Shown piece after piece: positions 47,377 to 61,951 of a DNA stretch of 64,000 nucleotides. This stretch comes from Thalassospira lucentensis. GTDB taxonomy: Bacteria; Pseudomonadota; Alphaproteobacteria; Rhodospirillales; Thalassospiraceae. The stretch spans positions 2,701,001 through 2,765,000 of the forward strand of contig NZ_CP136684.1 in assembly GCF_032921865.1 (NCBI RefSeq), written 5' to 3'. The notes beneath the pieces are model-generated. The model did not search any database, had not been told where the DNA came from, and was given only the letters and a program-made list of their open reading frames with translations. Position 1 is the first letter of the stretch; each line of letters opens with the position of its first letter. The position numbers and the translations under genes were made by a program.

Positions 47377-47997
47377 TTACTGGCTGACCCAAAGGACGCG
47401 CGCGATCCAGTCAATGTCGCGGGCCTCGACATAGCGGTCTTCATAAGCCGGGTTGAGGGATTTCAGTTCCACCCCCATCGCCCCGCGTCGGACCAGTTCC
47501 TTGGCCATGACTTCGCCCGATGTGGTTTTCAGAACCACGCGATCCTGCGGGCGGATATTTGATGCCGGGGAGACGACAATCAGATCGCCATCGCGAAAGA
47601 CCGGGGCCATGGAATCGCCTGCAATCCGAAGGCCATAGGCGGTCGGATCATGCAGGGCGGGAAAGGTGATGTCTTCCCATGCGCCGCCGACCGGATAACC
47701 GGCATCATCAAAAAAGCCGCGATTTCCGGCCTGGGCAAAGCCGATGACCGGCACGCGCCCGGCCCCGTTGCCATCGACAAGCTGGGCGAATTCCTGAAAG
47801 GTGACATTGGCCACCGAAAGCACCTTTGAAATGCTTTCGGTCGAGGGCCAGCGGGGCTTTCCCTGATTTGTCGTGCGTTTGGACCGGTTGAATGTGGTCG
47901 GGTCAAGCTGCGCCAAGCGGGCCAGTCCGGAGGGGGACAGCCCGTTATCTTCGGCGATCTTGTCAAGCGCGCCCCATATCTGTTCTTGCCGGATCAT
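47377..47997 (-). CDS. S24-family (LexA/CI-like) repressor
   Basis: The 206-residue protein has an N-terminal helix-turn-helix (GLSPSGLARLAQLDPTTFNRS) and a C-terminal S24 domain with the Ser129/Lys166 dyad (AGDSMAP, VMAKEL). The Ala90-Gly91 pair in GFAQAGNRGF stands where LexA and CI cleave themselves, so loss of repression after DNA damage is possible. Palindromes in front of its gene and again near the phage genes suggest control of the neighbouring phage region. Similar proteins also exist as ordinary chromosomal genes, so ownership by the phage is not certain. Confidence 0.85.
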   Translation of the reverse strand: MIRQEQIWGALDKIAEDNGLSPSGLARLAQLDPTTFNRSKRTTNQGKPRWPSTESISKVLSVANVTFQEFAQLVDGNGAGRVPVIGFAQAGNRGFFDDAGYPVGGAWEDITFPALHDPTAYGLRIAGDSMAPVFRDGDLIVVSPASNIRPQDRVVLKTTSGEVMAKELVRRGAMGVELKSLNPAYEDRYVEARDIDWIARVLWVSQ

Positions 47998-48029
47998 GCG
48001 TCATCCTAGCAGGATGAAAGGGCGACCGA

Positions 48030-48047
48030 AAAGGAACAAATTCCTTT
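48030..48047. promoter_or_regulatory. S24 repressor operator candidate, site 1
   Basis: AAAGGAACAAATTCCTTT is a seven-base-arm perfect inverted repeat 33 bases before the S24 repressor ATG. A related 18-base site is at 48859-48876. A further small inverted repeat, TCATCC/GGATGA (48001-48017), overlaps the ribosome-binding site of the same gene. Confidence 0.6.
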
Positions 48048-48139
48048 CATGCACGAAAGTCGAAGCAAAATCGCGAAGCACCTGAAAAGGGTATCGACCC
48101 CGGCAATGGATGCCGGGGTTTTGTGTTTCGCAGAGGGGC

Positions 48140-48334
48140 TTAAGCCGTGGCGTCATGCACCGGAACGTCTTTCGATGCTTTCAGCAGATCGATGCTGTGG
48201 ATGCAGTCGGCTTTGGCTTTGTAGCCCTCGCTGCTCATCGCGATTTTAAGGCCGTTGCGCGCGATATAGGTCCAGCGCCATTCGCCTTTTTTGTCCTTGT
48301 AAAGCTCGTAACGCGGGGACGGGGGATTTGCCAT
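48140..48334 (-). CDS. DUF1508 (YegP-like) small protein
   Basis: The 64-residue protein matches DUF1508: YELYKDKKGEWRWTYIARNGLKIAMSSEGY is read as a short beta-rich unit with the typical W-RW and NG-KIA features, here in one copy. AGGAG precedes the ATG six bases upstream. Its role is unknown; it lies between the S24 repressor and the phage-like genes. Confidence 0.82.
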   Translation of the reverse strand: MANPPSPRYELYKDKKGEWRWTYIARNGLKIAMSSEGYKAKADCIHSIDLLKASKDVPVHDATA

Positions 48335-48482
48335 GGGAGACTCCTGACTGTCAGTGGATCGGCATGCAGTGGACCGCATGGCCGGTGATGTAAAATTGCC
48401 CGGTCGGGCATCCCCGGTCAGGCATCCATGAAGACAGTTCAGAAGCGGTTTTGTGATGAAACGGGGCAGGAAGGGCGCGGGA

Positions 48483-48770
48483 TTAGCGCAGAAGTGCAAT
48501 CCCGTCATCATGGCCCGCCAGCAGGATCACATCCTTTTTCGACGGGGCCTTGCATTTCGTGGCCGGGCGGAGTGCGAGCAGGGAGGCGGCAATTTTCTGC
48601 GCGCCGGGGGAGAGGAAAAACGCGTCATCCGGCCCGAGTTCGCGCGAGCAAAAAAGGGCGGCATCGCGCGGTTTTTTGGCGGAAATGAACAGTTTTTCAA
48701 ACGCATCGACAAAATCGGTCGATATTCCCATTGCTTCCTGTTCCGTCATTTTGATGCTGGCCCAGCTCAT
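48483..48770 (-). CDS. Hypothetical protein at left edge of phage region
   Basis: This 95-residue protein is not recognised. It is mixed alpha/beta in appearance, without signal peptide or membrane segment, and begins MSWASIKMTEQEAMGI. GAGAG lies six bases before the ATG. It is read leftwards from the region that also carries operator site 2 of the S24 repressor. Confidence 0.6.
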   Translation of the reverse strand: MSWASIKMTEQEAMGISTDFVDAFEKLFISAKKPRDAALFCSRELGPDDAFFLSPGAQKIAASLLALRPATKCKAPSKKDVILLAGHDDGIALLR

Positions 48771-48858
48771 GGGAGTCTCTCGTCTGGTTGCGGATATCTG
48801 TAAGGCCATTATTCATCCGGTGACCGCCAAGTCGAGCATTTTTGCGGTTGTTCGTGCA

Positions 48859-48876
48859 ATAGGAAATTAATCCTTT
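48859..48876. promoter_or_regulatory. S24 repressor operator candidate, site 2
   Basis: ATAGGAAATTAATCCTTT matches site 1 (48030-48047) at 13 of 18 positions, including both AGGA and TCCT arms with the same six-base spacing. It lies in the divergent control region of the phage genes. Confidence 0.5.
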
Positions 48877-49029
48877 ACAATGAGAACAAAAAGGGATTAT
48901 AGCTTGTGGATCAACACCGGAAGTGCATCCGGAAATAGCTTTGATGCGGTCGGAATGGCGGAAAACGGCATGTAAGCCGGGTTTTGCACGTATCACGTTG
49001 GCAATCTTTACATATCCGGCAATTGGCGG

Positions 49030-49055
49030 TTTTGCGCAGTCGATGATGCGCAAAA
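49030..49055. promoter_or_regulatory. Inverted repeat before the first rightward phage gene
   Basis: TTTTGCGCA and its perfect complement TGCGCAAAA stand eight bases apart, 63 bases before the ATG at 49119. It may be an operator or an RNA hairpin; it lacks a T-run after the stem and so is not a clear terminator. Confidence 0.5.
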
Positions 49056-49118
49056 GGGGAGATTTGCACGCTTTTTCGGGGTGTTGATGCGAGACAGGCA
49101 GTTCAGCAGGAGGGCGAA

Positions 49119-49559
49119 ATGAGTGAACAGAGACTTTTTCCCAAGCCGATAGCGGACCGCGTGACGACCCCGTTTTCCAGTGCCATGCAGGCGTGGTTCT
49201 GGTTTGTGCGGTGCCAGGCGTCACGGATCGAAGGGGCGCGTGTGGTGGCGGATGCCAGCGATGTTGTGCGCCCGTGCGACCCGGATGATATCTATAACGC
49301 GGTCATGCGGTTACGGCGTGAAAATGTGCTGGGTGACCGGCATTTGCAGGTGATCGAATATTACGGGCTGATGGAACGTACGCCCGATCCGCGCGATGGG
49401 CGTGAAAAGCGGAAATATGACCTTTGGTGCGATGCGATGGCGGCCTTGCAGGATGTGCTGATTGCGCGCGATATCGTCCTGCCGGGGGCCGAGGATGCCT
49501 TTCACCATCCCGAGAAAATGATCAAAATGACGGGGGAATTGCCGCCATGCAGACTTTGA
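49119..49559 (+). CDS. Phage-region hypothetical protein
   Basis: The 146-residue protein is not assigned to a named family. It begins with a Trp/Phe-rich stretch (SSAMQAWFWFVRCQASRIEG), then RPCDPDDIYNAVMRLRRENVL and HLQVIEYYGLMERTPDPR. The middle looks helical and could bind nucleic acid, but no firm helix-turn-helix is seen. AGGAGGG precedes the ATG. It overlaps the next gene by 13 bases and the pair ends at a strong terminator. Confidence 0.75.
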   Translation: MSEQRLFPKPIADRVTTPFSSAMQAWFWFVRCQASRIEGARVVADASDVVRPCDPDDIYNAVMRLRRENVLGDRHLQVIEYYGLMERTPDPRDGREKRKYDLWCDAMAALQDVLIARDIVLPGAEDAFHHPEKMIKMTGELPPCRL

Positions 49560-50053
49560 CCCGTGAGGCGATCACACCTGCTTTGGCAGCAGTGAAACAG
49601 CCCGTATATCCGGGTGCAAATCCGCCAACCGAACCCGTCATGCGCGATGTGCTTGTCGTGTTTGCCGATGCACCGGAAAAGCGGGTTTTGCGGTGGCTGA
49701 AACCCGGTTTCCGGCATTGTTTCGTGCTGATGTCGGGCGGACGTGCCGGGGAGTGGATCTGCCTTGATCCGCAAAGCCACAGGATCGCGTGTGATGTCTG
49801 GCACTATTCGGTTCTGTTTGACCCCGAAGCCCATTACCGCGCGCGCGGATTTGATTGCATCTGGGTCAGTTATCCGGCGGAAGTGCCAAGGCGGGTGCGG
49901 TTGGGCGCGTTTACCTGTGTCGAGTTCGTCAAACGGTTGCTGGGCATTTCCGGGTTCTGGATCATGACGCCCTATCAACTTTTTTGCGCGATTAAACGCG
50001 CGGAAACAAAGGCTTATCGTGGGAGAGTGTTTTTTTCTGAAAAATGTTCTTGA
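49547..50053 (+). CDS. Permuted papain-like (NlpC/P60-type) protein, putative
   Basis: The 168-residue protein has a histidine in LKPGFRHCFVL (H57) and, about 70 residues later, a cysteine in FTCVEFVKRLLGI (C124), followed by TPYQLF. The His-before-Cys order and the CVEFVK helix match circularly permuted NlpC/P60-like proteins of the YiiX type. Such enzymes cut amide bonds in peptidoglycan or lipids. The assignment comes from motif order alone. It lies just before the phage structural genes. Confidence 0.6.
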   Translation: MQTLTREAITPALAAVKQPVYPGANPPTEPVMRDVLVVFADAPEKRVLRWLKPGFRHCFVLMSGGRAGEWICLDPQSHRIACDVWHYSVLFDPEAHYRARGFDCIWVSYPAEVPRRVRLGAFTCVEFVKRLLGISGFWIMTPYQLFCAIKRAETKAYRGRVFFSEKCS

Positions 50054-50100
50054 TTTGTTCTTTTTCTTGTGCCATAAGGGAGAAGTCAACACCACAATTG

Positions 50101-50140
50101 CGCCCGCATCGCTTCATCGCGTTGCGGGCGTTTTTGTTTT
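50101..50140 (+). terminator. Rho-independent terminator before the structural genes
   Basis: CGCCCGCA and TGCGGGCG close a hairpin over a 14-base loop, followed by TTTTTGTTTT. It separates the two leading genes from the portal module. Confidence 0.85.
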
Positions 50141-50141
50141 C

Positions 50142-50163
50142 AGCTCCGTTTCGGGGCTTTTTT
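50142..50163 (+). terminator. Second, adjacent terminator
   Basis: AGCTCCG and CGGGGCT pair with one G-T wobble over a TTT loop, followed by six T. It follows the previous terminator directly, making a tandem stop for transcription. Confidence 0.65.
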
Positions 50164-50242
50164 GCTTTTGGGCCCCGGTTTGGGGCATTTGGTTTTTCAG
50201 GTCCCGTCTATGGGATGAGGCAGAGGGAGGCAAAGGGGCATC

Positions 50243-50485
50243 ATGGGCAGTCTGTTTTCGACACCAAAACCATCCGCGCCACCACCAATTGCCACCAGTC
50301 CGTCCGCAAACCCGGCGTCCGTCGATGATGGGGAAAGTGCGGCAGAAGCGGCAAGACGGGCGAGGTCCGAGGCGCTGGAGCGGCGACGCTATGGCCGGGC
50401 CGGTCTGATCGGCACGGGATTTCGCGGGTTGCTTTCGGACCGGATCGACCGTGCGGCGGGCGGCAAAAATCTTTTGGGGGATTAG
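50243..50485 (+). CDS. Small phage protein before the portal
   Basis: The 80-residue protein has a Pro/Ser/Ala-rich N-terminal half and a basic C-terminal half (RRARSEALERRRYGRAGLIG). It starts after AAAGGGG and ends three bases before the portal ATG. Short basic proteins in this place are common in podovirus-like structural clusters, but no function is known. Confidence 0.7.
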   Translation: MGSLFSTPKPSAPPPIATSPSANPASVDDGESAAEAARRARSEALERRRYGRAGLIGTGFRGLLSDRIDRAAGGKNLLGD

Positions 50486-50488
50486 GCG

Positions 50489-52375
50489 ATGACAGAACGG
50501 CAGAACCGCAAAGCGCGCCCGGTCCGCCCGGCGCGGAAGACGGGTGTGGCGGCAAAGCGTCCGACGTCTGATCGGGCCGCCACCGATGGGCCAACGGGCA
50601 ACGGTGCGGAGACGCGGCGTGGTGATGGTCTGGTTGGAACAGGTCGGGTTGGAGCTGGCCGGACGGGAACCGACAAGGCTGAAGCCAGGCCGGGGGATGT
50701 CCGCCTGTCGAGGGCAGACCAGACTGCGGCGAAATTTGGCCGGATGGCGAAAGAGCCGGTCGGCCGCCTTGGAGCAGGTGCGGGGACAGGCAGCAATGCC
50801 GGGACCGGAACCAAAACCGGCACGATTGCGATTGCCGATTTGCGGGCCCGGTTTCGGGCGGCGATGGGGCAGAAGCGCGGTTGGATGCGCCACTGGCAGG
50901 AATGTTATGAATTCGCCCTGCCGCAACGCAACGGGGCAAGCGAGCAACCGGGAGCATCCGGTGGTGCATCTGGTGGGGAAAAGAAATTTGATCGGGTGTT
51001 TGATGCCACGGCCCCGGATGCGGTCGAGCAGCTTGCGGCCAGCCTGATGGCGGAAATCACCCCGCCGGGTGGTGGCTGGTTCACGTTTGAGCCGGGCGGC
51101 AATGTGGCGGATGCGGATCGGGACATTCTGACCGCGCGGCTTGCAAGGGCCGCGAGCATTTTGCAGGGGCATTTTGACCGGTCCAATTTCGCAGTCGAGA
51201 TGCATCAGGCGTTTCTTGATCTGGTGACGGCGGGGACGGCGTGCCTTCGGCTTGAGGCGGATGATTTCCTAAGCCCGTCAGCCTTCCGGTTTACGGCGGT
51301 GCCGCTTCGAGACGTGGCGTTCGAGGAACGCCATGATGGCAGAATGGATGCGGTGTTTCGCAAGCTGTCGCTGACCCGGGACGAGATTGCAAGGCAATGG
51401 CCGGAGGCGCGGTTGCCCGATGGGGATCAGGGTGCGGATCGGGATGAGGGGCAGAGCCCGAAACGTTATGCGGTGGTCGAGGCGGTTTTGCCCGATCCGG
51501 GGGCGTTTGGCGGTTATCAGCTTTGCGTATTCTTTGAGGATGGTGGGCAGGTTTCTGGTGGTCTGGCCGGCGAAGATGGGGTGATCCATCGGGACCGGTT
51601 TGATGTGTCGCCCTATATCGCGTTTCGCTGGATGAAGGCACCGGGCGAGGTTTATGGCAGGTCGCCGGTGATGAAGGCGCTGCCCGATATCAAGACCGCG
51701 AACAAGGTGGTGGAGCTGGTGCTTAAAAACGCATCCATCGCGGTGACGGGCATCTGGCAGGCCGATGATGACGGGGTTTTGAACCCGGCGGCGATCCGGC
51801 TGGTGCCCGGAAGCATCATCCCGAAGGCGGTTGGATCGGCGGGTTTGACGCCGCTTGATGCGCCGGGGCGGTTTGATGTTTCCGATCTGGTGCTGTCCGA
51901 CTTGCGCGATCGTATCCGACGGTGCCTTCTGGCTGATCGGCTGGGGCAAAGTGACCAGCCCGGCATGACCGCGACCGAGGTTCTCGAACGGGCATCGGAA
52001 AATGCCCGGTTGCTGGGGGCGACTTATGGACGGTTGCAGGCGGAACTGCTTTATCCGCTGATCAGGCGGGCGATCCATATTCTGGTGCGGCGTGGGGAGT
52101 TGCCCGACATGCCGCTTGACGGTGATGTCGTGCAGTTGCGCCATAGCGCGCCGCTGGCGCAGTTGCCCAAACGGGTACAGGCCGGGCAGGCGATGGATTG
52201 GTTATCAAGGATTGCGACGCTGGGGCCGGAGGCGCTGGGCGAGGTCGATATGCCCCACATGGTCCGCTGGCTTGCCGATCAGTTTGGCGTGCCGGACCAT
52301 TTGCTCAGGCCGATGATGCCGGTTTTGCCGGTTGAGGCATCACTTGAGGCGGGCGTTATGGAGGATGCGGTATGA
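50489..52375 (+). CDS. Portal (head-to-tail connector) protein
   Basis: The 628-residue protein matches podovirus head-to-tail connectors (T7 gp8 type): RAAMGQKRGWMRHWQECYEFALPQ, LMAEITPPGGGWFTFEPG, FLDLVTAGTACLRLE, WMKAPGEVYGRSPVMKALPDIK, read in parts, and VLERASENARLLGATYGRLQAELL. Twelve copies form the portal ring through which DNA enters the capsid. The first 110 or so residues are an unusual Gly/Thr/Arg-rich low-complexity extension before the recognisable domain. It overlaps the next gene by four bases. Confidence 0.92.
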   Translation: MTERQNRKARPVRPARKTGVAAKRPTSDRAATDGPTGNGAETRRGDGLVGTGRVGAGRTGTDKAEARPGDVRLSRADQTAAKFGRMAKEPVGRLGAGAGTGSNAGTGTKTGTIAIADLRARFRAAMGQKRGWMRHWQECYEFALPQRNGASEQPGASGGASGGEKKFDRVFDATAPDAVEQLAASLMAEITPPGGGWFTFEPGGNVADADRDILTARLARAASILQGHFDRSNFAVEMHQAFLDLVTAGTACLRLEADDFLSPSAFRFTAVPLRDVAFEERHDGRMDAVFRKLSLTRDEIARQWPEARLPDGDQGADRDEGQSPKRYAVVEAVLPDPGAFGGYQLCVFFEDGGQVSGGLAGEDGVIHRDRFDVSPYIAFRWMKAPGEVYGRSPVMKALPDIKTANKVVELVLKNASIAVTGIWQADDDGVLNPAAIRLVPGSIIPKAVGSAGLTPLDAPGRFDVSDLVLSDLRDRIRRCLLADRLGQSDQPGMTATEVLERASENARLLGATYGRLQAELLYPLIRRAIHILVRRGELPDMPLDGDVVQLRHSAPLAQLPKRVQAGQAMDWLSRIATLGPEALGEVDMPHMVRWLADQFGVPDHLLRPMMPVLPVEASLEAGVMEDAV

Positions 52376-52638
52376 GTGGCTGGGACTGGTTTGAGGGCTT
52401 GGCCGCCGCCGACGAAACGGATGAAGCGGATCGGGTGCATTGGCAGCAATGTTTTGGCACGAGTGCGGGGCAGAAGGTTCTGGCGGAGCTTGAACGCAGC
52501 ATCCTTAGAACCGCGCTTGGCCCGCAAAGCCCGGATCGGGCGATCTGGATGCGTGAAGGGCAGCGGGCGCTGGTTTTGCAGATGGCGCGGCTTGCACGGG
52601 GCAGCGTAGATGGAGGCGCGGCGGATAATAAGGGATGA
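52372..52638 (+). CDS. Bbp19-like phage protein
   Basis: The 88-residue helical protein has the layout of the phage Bbp19-like family: FGTSAGQKVLAELERSILR and WMREGQRALVLQMARLA. Its start overlaps the portal stop (ATGA). The family lies next to portals in many alphaproteobacterial phages and has no proven role. A paired-hairpin repeat follows. Confidence 0.7.
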   Translation: MSGWDWFEGLAAADETDEADRVHWQQCFGTSAGQKVLAELERSILRTALGPQSPDRAIWMREGQRALVLQMARLARGSVDGGAADNKG

Positions 52639-52689
52639 CAGGCCTTTGCCTTGGCGGAGATCAATGTTGTTGAGGAGCCTGCGGCACGA

Positions 52690-52774
52690 TGGACTCCCGC
52701 GTTCGCGGGAGTGACGGGGAGGGTGGGGCGTGACTATTCGTTTCAGTCGTCATTCCCGCGAAGGCGGGAATCCA
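52690..52774. repeat. Paired-hairpin intergenic repeat, copy 1
   Basis: Two hairpins (GGACTCCCGC...GCGGGAGT and CATTCCCGC...GCGGGAAT) stand head to head, flanked by TGGA and TCCA with GTGACGG and CGTCATT inside. It lies between the Bbp19-like gene and the scaffold gene. Related copies are at 57199 and 61999. Confidence 0.85.
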
Positions 52775-52870
52775 GACTTGGTGCCGCGTGTACCGTTAAT
52801 CAGGAAAAGCGCAATTTTATGAACAGGAACCGGGCAGCAAAGAAGCTGCGCGGACAGGGGAGAGTGCAGC

Positions 52871-53584
52871 ATGACCATTGATCAGAACCTGACGCGGCCA
52901 GAAGCCGGGGAGAGGGTGGAGGATAATCTGTTGCGTCCGACCGATGTGGCGGGCGGGGTAACTGAGGTGTTGGAAGATTTGGCCGAGGGCGGGGTTTTGG
53001 ATGCCGGGGCCTTGCCGGAAGGTGAGGTTGAGGCCGATGAAGCCATCGCGGCCCTTGATCCGGCCAGCATTCCCGAAACGCCCGACGGATACGAGATTGC
53101 AGTTGATGACGTGCTGGGCGCGGTTGATCCGGCGGTGAATGCGCGTTTGCATGAAGCGGGATTTACCGGTGCGCAGGCGCAGCTTGTTTATGATCTGGCG
53201 GCCGAGGTGATCGGGCCGTTAATCGGCGAGGTCGAGGTTGCAGGCAAACGTGCCACGGATCGCGCGGCACTGGCGGCCGAGTTTGGCGGGGTGGAGAACT
53301 GGAAACGGTTGGCCCCCCGGATTGAGAAATGGGGGCGTGAGAACCTGCCCGACGCGGCGTTTGAGGTTCTGTGCCAAACGGCAGACGGGGTGCGCAGTAT
53401 TCATCGGTTGATGAGCGGCGGGGCGGAGCCGGGACTGAGCGGCGGACGGCCAAGCGATGCGACAGGTGATTTACGTGCTGATATCCGGGCCAAAATGAAT
53501 GATCCGCGATACTGGCGCGACCGTGATCCGGCGATGGTGGCCGAGGTGCAGGCAGGTTTTGACCGCCTGCATGGCATTTCCTAG
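52871..53584 (+). CDS. Capsid assembly scaffolding protein
   Basis: The 237-residue protein has a strongly acidic N-terminal part (about 1-80), a helical middle (RAALAAEFGGVENWKRLAPRI, read in parts) and a C-terminal basic helix with PRYWRDRDPAMVAEVQAGFDRL. This composition and place between portal and capsid match the T7-like scaffold (gp9). GGGGAG precedes the ATG. Its TAG stop is shared, in the palindrome CTAG, with the stop of the antisense gene that follows. Confidence 0.82.
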   Translation: MTIDQNLTRPEAGERVEDNLLRPTDVAGGVTEVLEDLAEGGVLDAGALPEGEVEADEAIAALDPASIPETPDGYEIAVDDVLGAVDPAVNARLHEAGFTGAQAQLVYDLAAEVIGPLIGEVEVAGKRATDRAALAAEFGGVENWKRLAPRIEKWGRENLPDAAFEVLCQTADGVRSIHRLMSGGAEPGLSGGRPSDATGDLRADIRAKMNDPRYWRDRDPAMVAEVQAGFDRLHGIS

Positions 53585-54381
53585 TTCACCTGATAGCGGC
53601 CATCGGTTTTCTGGACTTCGGGGGGGATGCGGGTGCGCTCGAACGCTGCGTAAACGTCATAAAGGCCCGGCGCCGGGACGCTGGCAAAGGCGTCTTCGGT
53701 AAGGGTCACGGCATCATCCATGTTCTGGCGTTTTTCAAAGACGTGAACGGGCACCTGTGCCTGACCGGCGCGAAGGGCCGTATCGATCAGCATATAGACC
53801 GGCTCGATATCGCCGTTTTCAAGGGCGATGCCGCCCGTGCCCTCGCAATTGCCGCGAAGGGCGGGTTGGCCGGTTTGGGCCTGTTCTGCCATTTCTTCGG
53901 GGCTGCCCGATGTGAGCGGGGTCAGGGCGATTTCAAGGTGATACGGGCTGTTGGGGGAAAGGTCGTCGCGCGTGACATGGTAAACGCCAAGATCGGCAGC
54001 ATTGCCGATGGTGGCACTATCGGCACCGGTGGAGTTTCCATCGCCGTCACTGGCGTGGGTAATGGCATCGGCATCACAGAAATTATAGCGGGTAAACAGG
54101 CGGTAACGGTTGTTTGCCTTGAGCCAGACTTCGATATCGCGGTCGGCATTGAAGATGCGCACGAAAACAGGTGCGCCAATTGCCAGATCGGCGTTGGATA
54201 GTTCGGCTTCGAGATCGGGCAGAACCCGGTTGCGGATATTTTCCGCGCCAAACCCGGCAAGGGCCGAAACCCGGCTGGTGAAATCGTTGAAATAGCCGGG
54301 AACAGGGGTATAGGGCAGCAGGGTATAACCCGCTGCCCCAATCCCGATCAGGGCGATGGTGGCAAACAGTTTTGCGCGCAA
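53581..54381 (-). CDS. YafK-like L,D-transpeptidase homologue, catalytically degenerate
   Basis: The 266-residue product has a signal or anchor segment (LFATIALIGIGAAGYTLLP) and then the pattern of YafK-type L,D-transpeptidases: GAPVFVRIFNADRDIEVWL, YRLFTRYNFC, LGVYHV-(N/D)-LSPNSPYHLEIAL and QVPVHVFEKR. Where the family has HG-C-S-GCYAM, this protein reads LRGNCEGTGGIAL, so the catalytic His is Arg176 and the catalytic Cys is Gly184. It is likely a pseudoenzyme in the periplasm. TTG 54381 with TGGAG six bases upstream is the best start; the frame also runs to 54483. It is antisense to the surrounding phage genes. Confidence 0.72.
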   Translation of the reverse strand: MRAKLFATIALIGIGAAGYTLLPYTPVPGYFNDFTSRVSALAGFGAENIRNRVLPDLEAELSNADLAIGAPVFVRIFNADRDIEVWLKANNRYRLFTRYNFCDADAITHASDGDGNSTGADSATIGNAADLGVYHVTRDDLSPNSPYHLEIALTPLTSGSPEEMAEQAQTGQPALRGNCEGTGGIALENGDIEPVYMLIDTALRAGQAQVPVHVFEKRQNMDDAVTLTEDAFASVPAPGLYDVYAAFERTRIPPEVQKTDGRYQVN

Positions 54382-54613
54382 CGCAAACTCCAGATCATCA
54401 ATTTTGCAACAGGTCCGGCCAAACCGGACAGGTGTTCGAAACCGGCCGAGCAGGCGGGGTTCCGAACGACAACACCAAACCACTCAACCATGACCGCAAG
54501 ATGACCGGTTCGGGGTGCAAATAAGGCGGAATTGCCTGATTTGCCGCGCTGTCGGGCTGTTTCATCGCCACTGTGGTCGGAAAATTGTTTTAGGGCAGAA
54601 GGATACAAAACCA

Positions 54614-55429
54614 ATGAGCGTGACAATCGATAAAAGCTTTGTCGATCATTTCCAGGCCGATGTGCATCAGGCCTATCAGCGGATGGGATCGAAGCTTCGC
54701 AATACCGTCCGGGTCAAAAACAGTGTGAAGGGGGCCAGCACGGTTTTCCAGAAAGTTGGCAAGGGCAAGGCCACCACCAAGGCACGCCATGGCAAGGTGC
54801 CGGTGATGAATGCCGAACATGAGGCGGTGCGCTGTGATTTGCGTGATTATTATGCCGGTGACTGGGTCGATGCGCTGGACGAGCTTAAGACCAATCACGA
54901 TGAAAAGATGGTTCTGGCCAATGCCGGTGCCTATGCGCTGGGTCGCAAGACCGATGATCTGATCATCAATGCACTGGCAAGCGGCGAGGAGCTTATTGAT
55001 CACAATGATACGGGGTTGACCCTTGGCAAGGTGATGGCAGCCTTTGAAGGCATGGGCAACCGCGATGTGCCCGATGACGGGCAGCGTTATGCGATTGTCG
55101 GCTGGAAACAGTGGTCCGAATTGCTGCAGATCCCGGAATTTTCCAATGCCGATTATGTCGGTGATGACGATTTGCCGTGGAAGGGCACGCAGGCCAAACG
55201 CTGGCTTGGCACGCTGTGGATGCCGCATTCGGGGCTTCCGGTGGCGGACGGCATCCGGTCGTGCTTCTGGTATCACAGAACGGCGATTGGCCATGCGATT
55301 GGGGCGGATGTGCAGTCCGACATTACCTGGCATGGCGACCATGCCGCACATTTCGTCAACAATTCCATGAGCCAGGGTGCAGTGCTTGTTGATGATGCCG
55401 GGGTGAGCTGCATCCGGGCCAAAGAGTAA
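54614..55429 (+). CDS. Major capsid protein, probable
   Basis: The 271-residue protein follows the scaffold, as capsid genes do in T7-like clusters. It begins MSVTIDKSFVDHFQADVHQAYQ in parts, has a basic stretch (GKGKATTKARHGKVPV) and a C-terminal half with GMGNRDVPDDGQRYAIVG and WLGTLWMPHSGLP, features of podovirus coat proteins in Alphaproteobacteria. No signal peptide or membrane segment exists. AAGGA stands 11 bases before ATG 54614. It is shorter than T7 gp10A. Confidence 0.85.
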   Translation: MSVTIDKSFVDHFQADVHQAYQRMGSKLRNTVRVKNSVKGASTVFQKVGKGKATTKARHGKVPVMNAEHEAVRCDLRDYYAGDWVDALDELKTNHDEKMVLANAGAYALGRKTDDLIINALASGEELIDHNDTGLTLGKVMAAFEGMGNRDVPDDGQRYAIVGWKQWSELLQIPEFSNADYVGDDDLPWKGTQAKRWLGTLWMPHSGLPVADGIRSCFWYHRTAIGHAIGADVQSDITWHGDHAAHFVNNSMSQGAVLVDDAGVSCIRAKE

Positions 55430-55473
55430 GCCGCGGCTTTTGACGATTTTTCATACAGATAACGGAGACCAAA

Positions 55474-55749
55474 ATGGCAGAAGGTTTTAAAGCCAGAAAC
55501 CTGAGTGTTCTGGCCTATGCCAACGGCTTTACGCTTTGGCATTACATCACCCCGGATTTCGCCGCCGATGTCGATACGGCGGGTTACTTTGCCGATGCCC
55601 GCGACATGCTGCGGGTTGGCGACATCATCATCGCCAATACCAACCGCGATGCCACCATGTCAGGCGGGTTGTTCGTCGTGGCGAGTTCGGGGGCTTTGGG
55701 TGTTGATGTCCGCGATATGACGGCGATTGGCAGTTCGAATACGGACTGA
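55474..55749 (+). CDS. Small phage structural protein after the capsid
   Basis: The 91-residue protein (ARNLSVLAYANGFTLWHY, GDIIIANTNRDATMSGGLFVV) follows the capsid gene after GGAG. Such small beta-rich proteins next to capsid genes may decorate the head or join head and tail; no proof is visible here. A hairpin terminator follows 16 bases after its stop. Confidence 0.72.
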   Translation: MAEGFKARNLSVLAYANGFTLWHYITPDFAADVDTAGYFADARDMLRVGDIIIANTNRDATMSGGLFVVASSGALGVDVRDMTAIGSSNTD

Positions 55750-55764
55750 TCGGGGCCGCCCCGC

Positions 55765-55781
55765 CCGGCTTTGCCGGTTTT
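55765..55781 (+). terminator. Short intrinsic terminator after the capsid unit
   Basis: CCGGC and GCCGG pair over a TTT loop, followed by TTTT. The stem is short but GC-only. Confidence 0.6.
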
Positions 55782-55837
55782 ACCAACAGATTTTTACGTT
55801 TTCCCTCGACCCGTTTCTGCCCCGGCAGGAGCGGTTT

Positions 55838-55865
55838 TTTTATGTCCAACATTTTATGTCCAACA
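55838..55865. repeat. Perfect 14-base tandem duplication before tail-collar gene 1
   Basis: TTTTATGTCCAACA occurs twice without a gap, directly before the AAGGAG site of the next gene. It looks like a recent slippage or duplication event in the leader. Confidence 0.85.
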
Positions 55866-55878
55866 AAGGAGAATGCCC

Positions 55879-56457
55879 ATGCAGGGTTCCAAACCAGTCG
55901 AATGCGAAGTGCTTAACGTTATCCAGGCGGCAGGTATCTGGCCGGACTGCGATGACAAGACGCAGCTTTTGCAGGCGATCAATACGCTGATTTCGGGTGG
56001 TGGCAATGGTGGTGGCGGTGGTGCGACACCGCTTGGCACGGTGCTGCCGTTTGCCGGTGCGACGGCGCCGGAGGGCTTCATGCTGTGCGATGGTACCGAA
56101 CTGCTGGCCAGCGAGCATGCCGATCTGTTTGCCGTGATCGGTACGGTTTATGGCGAAGGCGAAGCACCGGGCAGCTTCAAGCTTCCTGATCTGCGGGGCC
56201 GCACCGCGATTGGTGCCGGTCAGGGTGTTGATCTGACGGATCGGCCGCTTGGCCAAATCGCAGGAGCGGAAACTCATAGGCTGATTATCGCTGAAATGCC
56301 GTCGCACAGTCATGGAAGCACTTTCAATACATCCGGGCCTCACAACGTTGGCTCGAACGGCAACGGACAGTTTGGCTCGACCGGCTCGACCGGGGGCGAT
56401 CAACCGCACAACAACATGCAGCCTTTCGTGGTGTTGAACTACATCATCAAGGTCTGA
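55879..56457 (+). CDS. Phage tail-collar domain protein 1
   Basis: The 192-residue protein has an N-terminal module (VLNVIQAAGIWPDCDDKTQLLQAINTLI, in parts), a glycine-rich linker, and a tail-collar domain with GTVLPFAGATAPEGFMLCDG, FAVIGTVYGEG and FKLPDLRGRTAIGAG. The C-terminus has a histidine pair motif (MPSHSHG) as in receptor-contacting collar tips. ATG 55879 was chosen for its spacing from AAGGAG. It is a paralogue of the next gene. Confidence 0.9.
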   Translation: MQGSKPVECEVLNVIQAAGIWPDCDDKTQLLQAINTLISGGGNGGGGGATPLGTVLPFAGATAPEGFMLCDGTELLASEHADLFAVIGTVYGEGEAPGSFKLPDLRGRTAIGAGQGVDLTDRPLGQIAGAETHRLIIAEMPSHSHGSTFNTSGPHNVGSNGNGQFGSTGSTGGDQPHNNMQPFVVLNYIIKV

Positions 56458-56476
56458 TTTTACCAAGTTCCTTCGA

Positions 56477-56508
56477 CCCGGCAGCATCCCGCTGCCGGGT
56501 TTTCTTTT
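56477..56508 (+). terminator. Rho-independent terminator of tail-collar gene 1
   Basis: CCCGGCAGC and GCTGCCGGG form a perfect nine-base-pair stem over ATCCC, followed by TTTTCTTTT. Confidence 0.9.
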
Positions 56509-56528
56509 ATCCAAAACGGAGAATATCC

Positions 56529-57143
56529 ATGCAGTGTAATACACCGGTTGCCAGCGAAGTTCTGAACGTTGTTCTGGCGGCCAATATCGCGCCGGATCGC
56601 CAGGATGACACCCAGCTTTTGCAGGCGATCAATACCCTGATTGCCAATGGTGGTTCGGGCGGTAGTGGAGGCAATGGCGGCGGTTCCGGTGCCGAAATCG
56701 GCTCTGTCACCGCCTTTGCCATGCCGACCCCGCCGGAAGGCTGGCTGGTCTGTGACGGTTCGGCGGTTTCTCGGACCGACTATGCTGATCTGTTTGCTGC
56801 GATTGGTACCGTCTGGGGCGATGGTGACGAGATCACCACCTTTAACCTGCCGGACCTTCGCGGTGAGTTCATTCGCGGTTTTGATGCCGGTCGGGAGGCG
56901 GATGTCGGACGCGAGTTTGCTTCTTGGCAGGCTGATGAATTTAAACGACACACTCATACTTATACTCGCCGATCTGGTACAGCCGAAGCTGGTAGTTCTG
57001 GACCGGGTAGCCGTACCAATCTGGAAACATTGAACACTTCAGAGACGGGTGGAGATGAAACCCGCCCGCGTAACATCGCCATGACCTATGCGATCAAGGC
57101 GTTTTATCCGGGTGGCGGCTTCGGCCTGATATCTGACGGATGA
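56529..57143 (+). CDS. Phage tail-collar domain protein 2
   Basis: The 204-residue paralogue shares the N-terminal module (QLLQAINTLI) and Gly-rich linker with protein 1, then GSVTAFAMPTPPEGWLVCDG and FNLPDLRGEFIRGFD. The C-terminal third (HTHTYTRRSGTAEAG onward) differs from that of protein 1, so the two may recognise different receptors. It has its own ribosome-binding site (CGGAGAA) and terminator. Confidence 0.9.
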   Translation: MQCNTPVASEVLNVVLAANIAPDRQDDTQLLQAINTLIANGGSGGSGGNGGGSGAEIGSVTAFAMPTPPEGWLVCDGSAVSRTDYADLFAAIGTVWGDGDEITTFNLPDLRGEFIRGFDAGREADVGREFASWQADEFKRHTHTYTRRSGTAEAGSSGPGSRTNLETLNTSETGGDETRPRNIAMTYAIKAFYPGGGFGLISDG

Positions 57144-57150
57144 GTGATGG

Positions 57151-57180
57151 GCGGGGGCCGGGTTTCCGGGCCCCGCTTTT
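57151..57180 (+). terminator. Intrinsic terminator of tail-collar gene 2
   Basis: A GC-only stem (57151-57161 with 57165-57176, allowing one bulge) over TTT is followed by TTTT. Confidence 0.75.
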
Positions 57181-57198
57181 ACCTGCGGCGCGAAGGAC

Positions 57199-57273
57199 TG
57201 GATTCCCGCCTGCGCGGGAATGACGGCAGGGAAAAGCTCCTTTCCCCGTCACTCCCGCGAAAGCGGGAGTCCA
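57199..57273. repeat. Paired-hairpin intergenic repeat, copy 2
   Basis: TGGATTCCCGC and GCGGGAGTCCA bound two head-to-head hairpins with AATGACGG and CGTCACT inside. This copy lies between tail-collar gene 2 and the convergent Sel1-repeat gene and may stop transcription from both sides. Confidence 0.85.
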
Positions 57274-57320
57274 TCGTGCCGCATCCTTATAACCGGCGAT
57301 GAGCCTGCGGTCCGATGGTT

Positions 57321-58874
57321 TTACTGTGCCCCTTTTTCCGCCAGATATCTGGTGACCTGGGCAGCGGCGCGGGTGCGTTGTTCGTAGGTGACGGAGGGGG
57401 CGGCGACTTCGATCCAGGTTTTGGCTTCGACATGATCGCGCGCAGCCGCGATGGAAAGATAGTACCAGGCAAGTTCGAGGTCTTCGGTGGTGTATTCGCC
57501 GTAATAATGCATCCGGCCCATGGCGGCAAAACCGTTGGTATCGTCAAGTTCGACGGCCTTCTGATACCAGACAATTGCGCCTGCCGGGTCTTCGGGGCCA
57601 CCGATGCCGTATTCAAGGAAATGGCCGTAATAGTAAGGGGCATCGGGATCGCCGTTTTCAGCGGCAAGCTTCATCCACTTCCGGGCCAGCACCGGATCGG
57701 GTTCGATGCCCTCGGCCCCGGACTGGTAGATGGCGGAAAGGCTGTATTGGGCGTAGGCGTCGCCGTCGGAGGCGGCCTTTTCATACCATTCGCGTGCGCG
57801 GGGGAGGCTGACATCGACCCCGATACCATGCAGATAGCAATCGGCCAGATTGACCATGGCAGACACATCGCCCAGATCGGCGGCGCGCCGATAGTGATAG
57901 GCGGCTTCGGTGGCGTCGGGTGCGACGCCCGATCCATTGAGATACATGACGCCAATCAGGTTGATCGCGCCGGCATGGTTATGATCCGCCGCCTTGCGGG
58001 CCAGTTCCATCGCGCGGGTGAAATCCTGCGGCACGCCATCGCCATAATAGGCGGCCAGCGCATCGGCAAAGAGTGGTTCGGTATCGGGTGCCGGGGCTGA
58101 AACAGGAGCAGGAGCAGCAGGAGCAGGAGCCGGTTCGATCACGATGGATCTGGAGGATGTAAAGCGTTCGGTTATCGTGCCGTTGGCATCCATGGTCCGG
58201 TTGGTGAAGGGGCAGGGTTCTGATGCCGGGTAGGTCGTAATCGCATCGCCGTCGGCCAGAACCGCGATGGCCGGGGCGTAACCCTGTTTGGCAGCACAAT
58301 TGTACCAGCCTTCGGCTTCTTCGAAGGCATCAAAGAAGAGGAATTGTCCTTCGAGATATTCGGCGAGCGCGAACTGTGCGGCGGGATCGCCATTCATGGC
58401 GCGGGTGCGCAGGGCGTTTTCATCGCTATCGTAGCTGTTTGCGGTGTCGGAAGTGTCTGGTGCGTTTTGCTTCTGGTCGGCGGTGTAACCGGCCCCGGTG
58501 TAATAGCATTCGCCGGTTTCGCTGATATCGAAATTGGCGTTGATGTTTTGCAGCTGATCAATGGCGGGCTGGTCACCCTGCAGGGCAGCGCATTCAAGCA
58601 GGCGGGTGATGGTGAAGTGTTCATCATCGTCAATGTGGCCGTCTTCGGCATAGTCGTAGGACAGTATGGCGCCCAGTATGCGCTGGGCCTCTGCATCGCC
58701 TGCGTAGGACTTGCGCCAGTATTCCCGGATCAGGGGATCGTCATCGGTGTTCTGGGCGATTTCCGCAGGGGTGGTCAGTGTTGGTGTGGCGAAGGACGCC
58801 AAGGCCGGGGCCATTGCAGACAGGCCCAAAGTGCCCGCGAAAACAAGTGATGCGACATACGGGAACCGGGACAT
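57321..58874 (-). CDS. Secreted Sel1-repeat protein
   Basis: The 517-residue protein has a signal peptide (cleavage near ALA, about residue 27), a cysteine-bearing N-terminal half, an Ala/Pro-rich linker (APAPAAPAPVSAPAP), and five to six Sel1 repeats in the C-terminal half (for example EAAYHYRRAADLGDVSAMVNLADCY). Sel1 proteins are scaffolds for protein contacts. GGAG precedes the ATG. It is antisense to the phage genes on both sides, so it reads as an inserted accessory gene rather than a virion component. Confidence 0.88.
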   Translation of the reverse strand: MSRFPYVASLVFAGTLGLSAMAPALASFATPTLTTPAEIAQNTDDDPLIREYWRKSYAGDAEAQRILGAILSYDYAEDGHIDDDEHFTITRLLECAALQGDQPAIDQLQNINANFDISETGECYYTGAGYTADQKQNAPDTSDTANSYDSDENALRTRAMNGDPAAQFALAEYLEGQFLFFDAFEEAEGWYNCAAKQGYAPAIAVLADGDAITTYPASEPCPFTNRTMDANGTITERFTSSRSIVIEPAPAPAAPAPVSAPAPDTEPLFADALAAYYGDGVPQDFTRAMELARKAADHNHAGAINLIGVMYLNGSGVAPDATEAAYHYRRAADLGDVSAMVNLADCYLHGIGVDVSLPRAREWYEKAASDGDAYAQYSLSAIYQSGAEGIEPDPVLARKWMKLAAENGDPDAPYYYGHFLEYGIGGPEDPAGAIVWYQKAVELDDTNGFAAMGRMHYYGEYTTEDLELAWYYLSIAAARDHVEAKTWIEVAAPSVTYEQRTRAAAQVTRYLAEKGAQ

Positions 58875-58975
58875 TGGTGCTCCATTCAAATTGCCCGGCC
58901 CTGTCACGGTCGGTTGAGACGGATTTTGACAATATTTCAACGATATCGGCAACCGGGAATTGAAGGGAAAGCGAT

Positions 58976-59545
58976 ATGGCACTGAGCGACATCGCACTTT
59001 GTGCGCGCGCATTGGTGATGATCGGGGCGGCACCGATTGTTTCGTTCGAGGATGACACCGCCGAGGCCGAGGTGGCGGGGATGCTTTATCCGGCTATCCG
59101 GGACGGGATGCTGGCGGGTTATCCGTGGCGATTTGCGGCACGGGGCGCGTGGCTGGCGCGGATGGAAAGTGAGGATGCGACCGGTTCGGGTGACGGGATG
59201 TTTGTCCTGCCGGGTGATTTTATCCGGCTGCTGTCTCTTGAGACGGATGGCGGGGCGGTGCCGGAGTTTGAGCTGGTGCAGGGGGCGGTGAGGTGCGGGG
59301 CGGATCGGGCGTACTTACGCTATGTCGGGCGGCTGGCGGAGGGGGCGTTTCCCGCGTTTTTTGATCTGGCGCTGATTATGCGCCTTGCGGCGGAGTTTTG
59401 TGTGCCGCTGACCGAAAGTACGTCGCGGGCGGAGTATCTTTTTAAACGCGCCGAAGACCAGTTTCGCAGCGCGCGGCTGGCCGATGCGCAGCAATCAACC
59501 CCGCGGGCGATTGGGGATTTCACCCTGATCGGGGTGCGGGGATAG
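58976..59545 (+). CDS. Tail tubular protein A-like (T7 gp11-type adaptor)
   Basis: The 189-residue protein matches T7 gp11-type tail adaptors: ALVMIGAAPIVSFEDDTAEAEVAGMLYPAIRD in parts, YPWRFAARGAWLAR, and LPGDFIRLLSLE. It would form the ring between portal and tail nozzle. AGGGAAA precedes the ATG. The next gene, the nozzle protein, follows after 31 bases. Confidence 0.88.
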   Translation: MALSDIALCARALVMIGAAPIVSFEDDTAEAEVAGMLYPAIRDGMLAGYPWRFAARGAWLARMESEDATGSGDGMFVLPGDFIRLLSLETDGGAVPEFELVQGAVRCGADRAYLRYVGRLAEGAFPAFFDLALIMRLAAEFCVPLTESTSRAEYLFKRAEDQFRSARLADAQQSTPRAIGDFTLIGVRG

Positions 59546-59576
59546 GAAATTTCGGGTGTGGTGAAGGGGACGGGTT

Positions 59577-61508
59577 ATGGCGCGCAGGGTACTGGAAAAG
59601 ACGACATTTTCGACTGGTGAACTGGCGCCGGAATTGTGGGGGCGGTCGGACCTTAATGCCTATGGCAATGGGGCGGCGCGGTTGCGCAATGTGTTCATTG
59701 AACCGAGCGGCGGGGTGCGCAGACGGCCCGGTATCGCGTTGATTGATGCGGTGTCCGGCCCGGTGCGGTTGATCCCGTTCGAGTTCAATACAGAGCAGAC
59801 CTATCTGATGGTGTTTGGGGATTATCAGGGCACGGTTTATCGCGACGGGGTGGCGATTGTCGGGTTTGAGACGCCGTTCGGGGTGGCGCATCATGCGCTT
59901 CTGAACTGGACGCAAAGTGCCGATACGCTGCTTGTCACCCACCCGGAGGTCGAGCCGATGCGCCTGACGCGCAAAGGATCAGACGACGGGGCGGGGACGT
60001 GGGAGCTGACCAACTGGGCGTGGCGCGAAACGGCGGTGAAGCGGTTTCAGCCATACTATAAATTCGGGGATCTGGCGGTTTCGATCACGCCATCGGGGAC
60101 AGGTGGCGCTGGTGGCACGATCAGCATCACGGCCAGTTCGGCGCTTTTCGAGGCCGGGCATGTCGGGACGCGCTGGCGCATTCAGGGGATCGAGGGGCAG
60201 ATTGCCGGGGTTTCGAGTGCGACGGTGGCGACTATTGCGTTGAAAGAGGCGCTTCCGAATGCCAGCACGACACAGGATTTTGAAGAACAGGTTTTTTCGC
60301 CCGTGCGTGGCTGGCCGCGCAGCGTGACGTTTCATCAGGACCGGATGGTGATTGGCGGATCGCGGGATTTGCCCAATCGGTTGTGGATGTCGAAATCGGG
60401 GGATCTGTTCAATTTCGATCTGGGCGAGGGACTGGATGACGAGGCGATTGAATTTGCCCTGCTGGCCGATCAGGTCAATGCGATTACCGGTATTTTCGCC
60501 GGGCGCCATTTGCAGGTTTTCACCAGCGGATCGGAATGGATGGTGACGGGGGCCCCGTTGACCCCGGCCAATATCCAGGTCACGCGTCAGACCCGGATTG
60601 GCAGCCGGGCGGATCGGACGGTGCCGTTGGTCAATGTCGATGGCGCAACGATCTTTGCCGCGCGCAGCGGCCGGGAATTGCGCGAATTCCTGTTTACCGA
60701 TGTGGAGCAGGCCTATGGGGCGGCGGATTTGGCGCTTTTATCGCGCCATCTGGTGCAAAACCCGGTTGATCAGGCGTTTGATGCGGATCACCGGCTTTTG
60801 CATGTGGTGATGGGCGATGGCAGCCTTGGCACCTTAACACTTTATCGCAGCGAGGCGATTACCGCTTGGTCGGCGCAAAGTGTTGCGGGGGCGGCATTTC
60901 GGGCCGTCGCGGTGGCGGGCGGGCAGGTTTACCTTTGCCTTGAACGTGCTGGGAAATTTTACCTTGGCCGGTTTAATGAGGGTTGCGGGCTTGATCTTTC
61001 GATCACCGCACAAGTGGCGGAGGAGGAAAGCCCGCGCCGCCATTGGGGCGGGTTTGGTGATCTGGAAAATGTCACCCTGGCCGTGTGGGCCGATGGTCGG
61101 CTTTATCGCGACATTACGGTGTCGGGCGGCACGATCAGCCTTTCGGAAAATGTTTCAACGGTCGTGGCCGGATTGCCGTTTACCCATGAAATTGCCGCTT
61201 TGCCACCCGCCGGATCGGATGGCACGCGGGCACATGGGGGCAATGCGCTGCGGCTTGTGTCGGTGACGTTCCGGGTGCAGCAGACCGAACAGTTGCGCGT
61301 TGATACCGGGCGAGGATTGCGCGATGTCGCACTTGGCCGGGGGCGCCAAGAAGATGCGGCTTACAGCGGTGATGTGAGCTTGCGTGCCCTTGGCTGGCGG
61401 CGTGGCAGTGCCGGGCGGGACAATGATGGATTATGGCGGATCGCCGGGGATTTTCCCCGGCCTTTTTTATTGCTGGGGGTCGCCAGCGAATTGGGGGTGA
61501 ATGACTGA
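59577..61508 (+). CDS. Tail tubular protein B-like (T7 gp12-type nozzle)
   Basis: The 643-residue protein matches the podovirus tail nozzle family: FSTGELAPELWGRSDLNAYGNGAARLRNVF (in parts), GGVRRRPG, PFEFNTEQTYLMVFGD, WPRSVTFHQDRMVIGG and FTSGSEWMVTG. It should form the distal tail tube with the gp11-like adaptor. GAAGGGG precedes the ATG. Its last base overlaps the start of the next gene. Confidence 0.92.
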   Translation: MARRVLEKTTFSTGELAPELWGRSDLNAYGNGAARLRNVFIEPSGGVRRRPGIALIDAVSGPVRLIPFEFNTEQTYLMVFGDYQGTVYRDGVAIVGFETPFGVAHHALLNWTQSADTLLVTHPEVEPMRLTRKGSDDGAGTWELTNWAWRETAVKRFQPYYKFGDLAVSITPSGTGGAGGTISITASSALFEAGHVGTRWRIQGIEGQIAGVSSATVATIALKEALPNASTTQDFEEQVFSPVRGWPRSVTFHQDRMVIGGSRDLPNRLWMSKSGDLFNFDLGEGLDDEAIEFALLADQVNAITGIFAGRHLQVFTSGSEWMVTGAPLTPANIQVTRQTRIGSRADRTVPLVNVDGATIFAARSGRELREFLFTDVEQAYGAADLALLSRHLVQNPVDQAFDADHRLLHVVMGDGSLGTLTLYRSEAITAWSAQSVAGAAFRAVAVAGGQVYLCLERAGKFYLGRFNEGCGLDLSITAQVAEEESPRRHWGGFGDLENVTLAVWADGRLYRDITVSGGTISLSENVSTVVAGLPFTHEIAALPPAGSDGTRAHGGNALRLVSVTFRVQQTEQLRVDTGRGLRDVALGRGRQEDAAYSGDVSLRALGWRRGSAGRDNDGLWRIAGDFPRPFLLLGVASELGVND

Positions 61509-61951
61509 TGGGCGCGTTTGCATCCTATGCACCAATGGCACTTTCTACCCTGCAAACCGGGCAGCAGATTTCATCAAGCCGGGCGAACCAGAAAAGCCGC
61601 GCGGCAGAGACGGAGGCCAACCGGAAGGCCGATATTGCCAGCATCAATGCCAGCGAGACGGAACGCGCACGCGAACGAGCCGAGGAATTGCGCATCCGGC
61701 AGGCAAGGCTTCGCGCACGCCAAGGGGCGGCGGGCCTGCAAAGCGGGGCGACGGGATCGGCCAGTGCGGTTCTGGCCGGGTTTGAGAAGCAGGCATTATC
61801 GGACAGTCAGGCCGATGCGGATGCGGCAGCGCGCAGACGGGCCGAGGTTAACCGGCAGGCAAGCTATCGTGAAACATCGCTTTTGCGATCCTCGCAGGAT
61901 GACACGGTGGCACGGTTGAATGCGTGGTTTGCAAGGCGGGATGGGTGGTGA
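61508..61951 (+). CDS. Internal virion protein (T7 gp14-like)
   Basis: The 147-residue helical protein (NQKSRAAETEANRKADIASINASE, then QARLRARQGAAGLQSGATGSASAV) matches short ejection proteins that follow the nozzle gene in T7-like phages. These enter the host envelope during infection. The start overlaps the nozzle stop by one base. The gp15- and gp16-like ejection proteins expected next are absent here. Confidence 0.8.
   Translation: MGAFASYAPMALSTLQTGQQISSSRANQKSRAAETEANRKADIASINASETERARERAEELRIRQARLRARQGAAGLQSGATGSASAVLAGFEKQALSDSQADADAAARRRAEVNRQASYRETSLLRSSQDDTVARLNAWFARRDGW

Follow-up and report, generated by a model that had tools for sequence, protein, structure and literature searches.

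Between the scaffold and capsid genes of a podovirus-derived gene cluster in Thalassospira lucentensis lies, on the opposite strand, a gene for a homologue of the Escherichia coli amidase DpaA (YafK) that has lost the residues of the catalytic site and has been maintained by purifying selection. The cluster was found in a stretch of 64,000 nucleotides (contig NZ_CP136684.1, positions 2,701,001 to 2,765,000), here called the window, and is not an ordinary prophage: it has a fixed place and passes by vertical inheritance in the genus and in its order, the Rhodospirillales. On balance we favour the view that the protein is a non-catalytic DpaA descendant, carried as cargo of an ancient, vertically inherited, podovirus-derived locus resembling a gene-transfer agent (GTA) and kept as an envelope scaffold. 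Features of the window are collected in Table 1.

Table 1. Features of the cluster and its surroundings, with positions numbered from the first letter of the window
Feature	Position	Strand	Remarks
HTH and Peptidase_S24 (LexA/CI-like) repressor	47377-47997	-	Adjoins the cluster in nearly every family examined
First cluster gene, 146 aa; possible small terminase	49119-49559	+	Conserved across families; assignment from position only, no family match
Conserved 209-aa protein	49424-50053	+	No family match; start overlaps the preceding ORF, true start may be later
Head-tail connector/portal (PF12236)	50489-52375	+	Conserved from about residue 100
Small conserved protein after portal	52372-52638	+	
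Scaffold, T7-type capsid assembly protein (PF05396)	52871-53584	+	
DpaA/YafK-like pseudoenzyme, 266 aa	53581-54381	-	Homology, AlphaFold model, selection
Pseudoenzyme regions		-	Predicted membrane anchor, residues ~4-22; linker, 23-65; degenerate YkuD-type domain, 66-266
Degenerate catalytic motif LRGNCEGTGGIA (residues 175-186)	53824-53859	-	R176 = H135, C179 = C138, G184 = C143
Divergent intergenic stretch, pseudoenzyme start to capsid start	54382-54610	.	No convincing sigma-70 promoter
Major capsid protein (PF19821, phrog_3437)	54611-55429	+	Single copy per genus genome
Conserved 91-aa protein after capsid (phrog_18004)	55474-55749	+	
Two tail-collar/fibre-like genes	55771-57143 (55771-56457, 56529-57143)	+	
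Sel1-repeat protein, second antisense cargo gene (phrog_8741 match)	57321-58880	-	Only some genus members
Tail tubular A and B homologues; gene weakly like internal virion proteins	58976-59545, 59577-61508, 61508-61951	+	

The initial annotation had placed an antisense YafK homologue here, and both the gene and its family stand. The coding part (53584-54381, with the stop codon at 53581-53583) ends tail to tail with the scaffold gene. It begins at a TTG codon (54379-54381) with GGAG a few base pairs upstream; the frame is open up to a GTG at 54483, and the starts of all homologues fall on the equivalent TTG, GTG or ATG codon. A scan for promoters and terminators around the gene gave nothing above chance, and the SOS box GTTCN7GTTC occurs three times in the window against 1.95 expected, with none before the gene. 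The protein is presumably expressed. Its N-terminus carries positive charge and a single hydrophobic segment, followed by a nearly invariant 'LP-TPIP' region, a pattern that would anchor it in the inner membrane with its domain in the periplasm, as the initial annotation had supposed of a periplasmic pseudoenzyme.

Homology to DpaA covers the catalytic domain and the C-terminal tail. The protein matches the structure of E. coli DpaA (PDB 8IKR) in phmmer with an e-value of 6e-12, improved to 1.3e-21 with a profile of 12 homologues; hhalign against a profile of catalytic DpaA-like proteins gives a probability of 99.9 (E = 1.1e-33), and the phage protein family phrog_17304 is matched at 1.7e-13. 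Pfam assigns it to no family, YkuD (PF03734) included, even at e-values up to 1. Comparison of an AlphaFold (AF2) model with the PDB using Foldseek again finds 8IKR as the best match (E = 9.4e-14, TM-score 0.75 by target length), so that the model adopts the YafK fold. Its mean pLDDT is 73.7; most of the domain core lies above 85, while the anchor, loop L1 and residues ~220-235 are weak. A chance antisense ORF is ruled out by the homology and by the selection described below.

The substitutions first read from the sequence, Arg for the catalytic His and Gly for the nucleophile, are upheld by alignment of the motif LRGNCEGTGGIAL to MIHGDCVSIGCYAM, where R176 replaces H135 and G184 replaces the nucleophile C143. 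The loss goes further than that account, since the Lys83 loop (GPK, loop L1) and Y131 are gone as well. In DpaA, where C143 is the nucleophile, the K83A variant is inactive, and the Y109A and Y131A variants retain 0.7% and 4% of the activity, respectively (PMC10653827). The loss is also conserved, a point that the initial annotation had proposed to survey: in 12 of 12 cluster-borne homologues the Cys143 position holds Gly, Ser or Ala and the Lys83 loop is replaced by variable sequence. At the His135 position the homologues have R, Y, Q, N or H, His being kept in one clade (G010, G019, G023, G026 and G027) and one of the other four found elsewhere. The Y131 position is Gln (Q172) in the window and Tyr in no homologue, and the Y109 position is Tyr (Y147) in the window sequence only. 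On one reading, the nucleophile was lost first and the His drifted afterwards. The alignment speaks against C179, conceivable as a substitute nucleophile, since it corresponds to the non-catalytic C138 of DpaA. C102 corresponds to C74. Neither Cys varies among members with or without the catalytic residues, and the two are a likely structural pair, perhaps a disulfide. By every residue tested, the protein is predicted to be non-catalytic.

To the right of the window the cluster continues with a tail protein, a large terminase (TerL; phrog_38, 2.9e-84), an endolysin (PF07486, Hydrolase_2) and a holin (PF11351, GTA_holin_3TM). The terminase was found by reading rightward, a Terminase_6N search of the window's genome having given no match. 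The genus genomes checked all have terminase, endolysin and GTA-type holin, and several other families have the first two. No integrase or replication genes were recognised among the ORFs scanned, a subset of those in the cluster and its right part. Two other details may be recorded. The product of 49424-50053 retains His/Cys-containing segments and might be a peptidase; and between the tail and terminase genes (L143, 3307-4403) lie a gene for an Xre/MbcA-type antitoxin and then a 228-aa ORF, probably a toxin-antitoxin pair.

The gap between scaffold and capsid genes is a variable cargo site, and the pseudoenzyme is the Thalassospira version of its cargo. Both neighbours were located in 31 genomes of other families; there the gap measures at most 390 nt in 16 and is filled in 15. 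Pfam peptidoglycan-binding domains, encoded on either strand, occur in six of the filled gaps; elsewhere there are Rce1-like proteases, MCP-like, GST and Sel1 proteins and, since this cargo outside the genus is mixed, the peptidoglycan theme is a mere tendency. In one such gap (L080 12437-15295, genome G037) an antisense pair comprises a 688-aa protein, with PG_binding_1 and a long unmatched C-terminal part, followed by a 259-aa protein; the two could be effector-like.

The recurrence of peptidoglycan-binding cargo at this site, together with the conservation of the endolysin and the GTA-type holin in the same locus, would suit an anti-lysis or timing factor that restrains the cluster's own SleB-type endolysin or its holin until release. 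Endolysin and holin are, however, present in species that lack the pseudoenzyme gene, so that any dependence is not obligatory, and a search for a link between the presence of the pseudoenzyme and the endolysin showed none. We consider such a role unlikely, although it deserves to be kept in mind.

Within the genus the gene is unevenly retained. In 29 genomes it is full-length in 12, truncated in three (G001, G006 and G014), reduced to an anchor-only ORF of about 42 aa in ten and absent from four, G021 being counted here from the lack of a match alone; in three examined genomes without it the gap is 116-147 nt. The anchor-only ORF stands in for the full gene (L114-L119, approximately 8001-8129). 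With 17 of the 29 genomes having a truncated, reduced or missing gene, the pseudoenzyme is evidently dispensable to the locus. All close homologues in named genomes belong to Thalassospira. Among 100 relatives, the sole match outside the genus is an ordinary catalytic protein encoded away from the cluster (G033), and the window's own genome yielded no catalytic DpaA-like protein. Placed on the trees of head genes and of lysK, the gene occurs in the deepest branch of the genus and in the window's clade, and is reduced or lost in a third subclade; the gene and its catalytic loss therefore predate the sampled species.

Could the gene, then, be a decaying relic, caught at different stages of loss and without present function? 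The series from full-length through truncated and 42-aa forms to absence within one subclade has that appearance, as do the pairwise NG86 dN/dS values of the truncated forms, at 0.39-0.60 higher than those of the full-length ones. Against this, the full-length forms have dN/dS of 0.12-0.38 (capsid, 0.02-0.17), indicating a pseudoenzyme under selection, and their frames are intact in 12 genomes of two subclades. The 42-aa form is itself conserved: its changes are mostly silent, with dN of 0.00-0.17 and dS mostly of 0.3-0.8 between more distant pairs. Graded reduction to an anchor that is still selected fits a function residing partly in the membrane segment, and decay alone strikes us as improbable.

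The distribution of constraint along the protein points in the same direction. The two full-length clades are 16-19% identical to each other in the substrate loops L1 and L3 but 64% in the linker, 67% in the helix at 187-215 and 80% in the C-terminal tail, against 51-57% overall, placing the constraint away from the old cleft. The shift argues against DpaA-like binding of stem peptides and would make the linker and tail candidate protein-contact parts. Peptidoglycan binding, put forward in the initial annotation, is disfavoured as far as the old cleft is concerned because the loops lining it are the least conserved and, of the binding residues probed in DpaA, three are lost or unconserved. These patterns favour a membrane-anchored periplasmic scaffold over a binder of peptidoglycan stems.

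The same annotation had the gene carried by a phage, and here the picture has changed. The capsid gene occurs once in every sampled Thalassospira genome, and across the order in 127 of 225 genomes and 43 of 84 genera. All genus genomes examined have the same left flank of the cluster, and to its right they share the host genes from ExoD and DUF952 onward. In other families the cluster stands immediately next to lysK and the S24 repressor, and the order lysK, S24 repressor, portal, scaffold, capsid recurs across many Rhodospirillales families. Trees of head proteins and of LysK have 8 of 16 splits in common, as compared with a mean of 0.17 and a maximum of 2 when labels are shuffled. The nearest annotated phage capsids are those of the Pelagibacter phages Hodr (46%) and HTVC010P (31%), and an unannotated faecal contig reaches 61%. 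By its gene anatomy, which comprises a regulator, head, short tail, terminase, endolysin and GTA-type holin, the cluster looks like a podovirus-type GTA-like locus, and it may have corresponding activity. Spanning 47377-61951 of the window and continuing to about 2776351 (G000:C2), it is probably of more interest than the pseudoenzyme gene. Capsid genes that are fragmentary or interrupted (G127:C37, G045:C13 and G083:C30) point to decay of the locus in certain lineages within the order. In IMG/VR, viral-contig records 16-19 kb in length (L027-L034) appear to be this fixed chromosomal locus cut from genomes and are probably not evidence of free viruses.

These observations bear on the proposal that the pseudoenzyme is a lysogenic-conversion gene of an ordinary prophage, its periplasmic product binding peptidoglycan or host transpeptidases and so blocking superinfection. 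An antisense gene within a head module, with its own start, an envelope product and evidence of selection, is what such a gene might look like, and the further peptidoglycan-related cargo at the site is in keeping with it. The locus nevertheless keeps to a single chromosomal site and has been inherited together with lysK, the scanned ORFs include no recognisable integrase and the substrate loops are unconserved. A search of a phage collection returned only two unannotated records, with catalytic motifs intact and probably of host DNA, and a viral structure library contained no match below E = 1e-3. For a cluster that is fixed and vertically inherited, exclusion of superinfecting phages by a prophage is not the obvious interpretation, and we regard it as quite improbable; the pseudoenzyme probably serves the host, as cargo of what may be a gene-transfer particle, and is not a property that an infecting phage brings along.

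Least credible of all is that the protein remains an enzyme of another kind, using serine chemistry on the YafK scaffold like Legionella Lpg1514, whose reactivity with beta-lactams depends on Ser132, is helped by His166 and does not need Cys174 (PMC13400389): serine chemistry has been reported across YafK homologues (PMC13400389) and the NPxS serine, S145, is invariant in the ten full-length homologues, but its equivalence to Ser132 is deduced from spacing, the window's clade, G024 and G020 no longer have the assisting His, and the serine itself is lost in truncated forms.

We thus return to the non-catalytic envelope scaffold. In this view, a DpaA descendant, which its N-terminus would hold in the inner membrane and whose domain would lie in the periplasm, is genus-level cargo inserted between the scaffold and capsid genes of a podovirus-derived, particle-making locus of Rhodospirillales. 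Catalysis was lost before the sampled Thalassospira species split, and the parts for which the protein has since been retained would be the membrane anchor, the linker and the C-terminal tail. Most likely, it would act in locus-carrying cells as an envelope scaffold that contacts another envelope protein through linker and tail, serving the carrier cell, possibly at lysis or particle entry. As a guess, the partner might be a wall or lysis factor, which is plausible given that other families carry peptidoglycan-binding genes at this site. More broadly, and tentatively, the Rhodospirillales may possess a podovirus-type GTA of their own, independently domesticated at the lysK locus, with the scaffold-capsid gap as a cargo site for envelope genes and the dead DpaA as the envelope factor in Thalassospira, where it could control lysis or shield resident or recipient cells.

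Known DpaA-like proteins are cysteine amidases, and a selected lineage without nucleophile or substrate lysine would show that the scaffold can work without catalysis. The setting carries more weight than the pseudoenzyme, given a capsid gene in 43 of 84 sampled genera of an order in which no RcGTA-like clusters have been found: GTA-Hunter detected none of the head-tail type in 24 Rhodospirillales genomes (PMC6821227). Thalassospira MIT1004 has been checked for RcGTA homologues and, with PHASTER, for prophages only (PMC10304870), and we found no published description of the locus in a partial coverage of the literature. A fixed podovirus-type particle locus that also encodes terminase, endolysin and GTA-type holin would have a strong claim to represent an independent GTA origin, a question directly testable in these easily grown marine bacteria.

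Among known systems, the closest to the pseudoenzyme is E. coli DpaA (YafK, LdtF; 8IKR), a peptidoglycan-Lpp amidase of the same fold, homologous over residues 67-265 including the C-terminal tail. The two proteins have in common the Cys pair and an Ala two residues past the nucleophile position. They differ in the absence from the pseudoenzyme of C143, H135, the K83 loop and Y131, in its apparently uncleaved anchor where DpaA has a signal peptide, and in its location in a phage-derived cluster. Lpg1514, a YafK-family protein with serine-dependent beta-lactam hydrolysis, has the same scaffold, and the full-length forms retain the NPxS serine; it keeps Cys174, His166 and Lys110, however, and the window protein none of the three. 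The sole phage protein family to match the pseudoenzyme, phrog_17304, has no function assigned, and the matching sequences from phage records, unlike the pseudoenzyme, have intact catalytic motifs. As for the cluster, RcGTA and its relatives (Rhodogtaviriformidae) are likewise fixed and vertically inherited, with head, tail, terminase and GTA-type holin and, as far as the ORFs scanned here go, no recognised replication or integration genes, but the podovirus-type head and tail genes described here (PF12236, PF05396, PF19821) are of another lineage. A parallel by description is FpGTA of Faecalibacterium, which a 2026 paper calls the first podovirus-like GTA-like element (PMC12946183); its host is Gram-positive, and its particles and packaged DNA have been shown.
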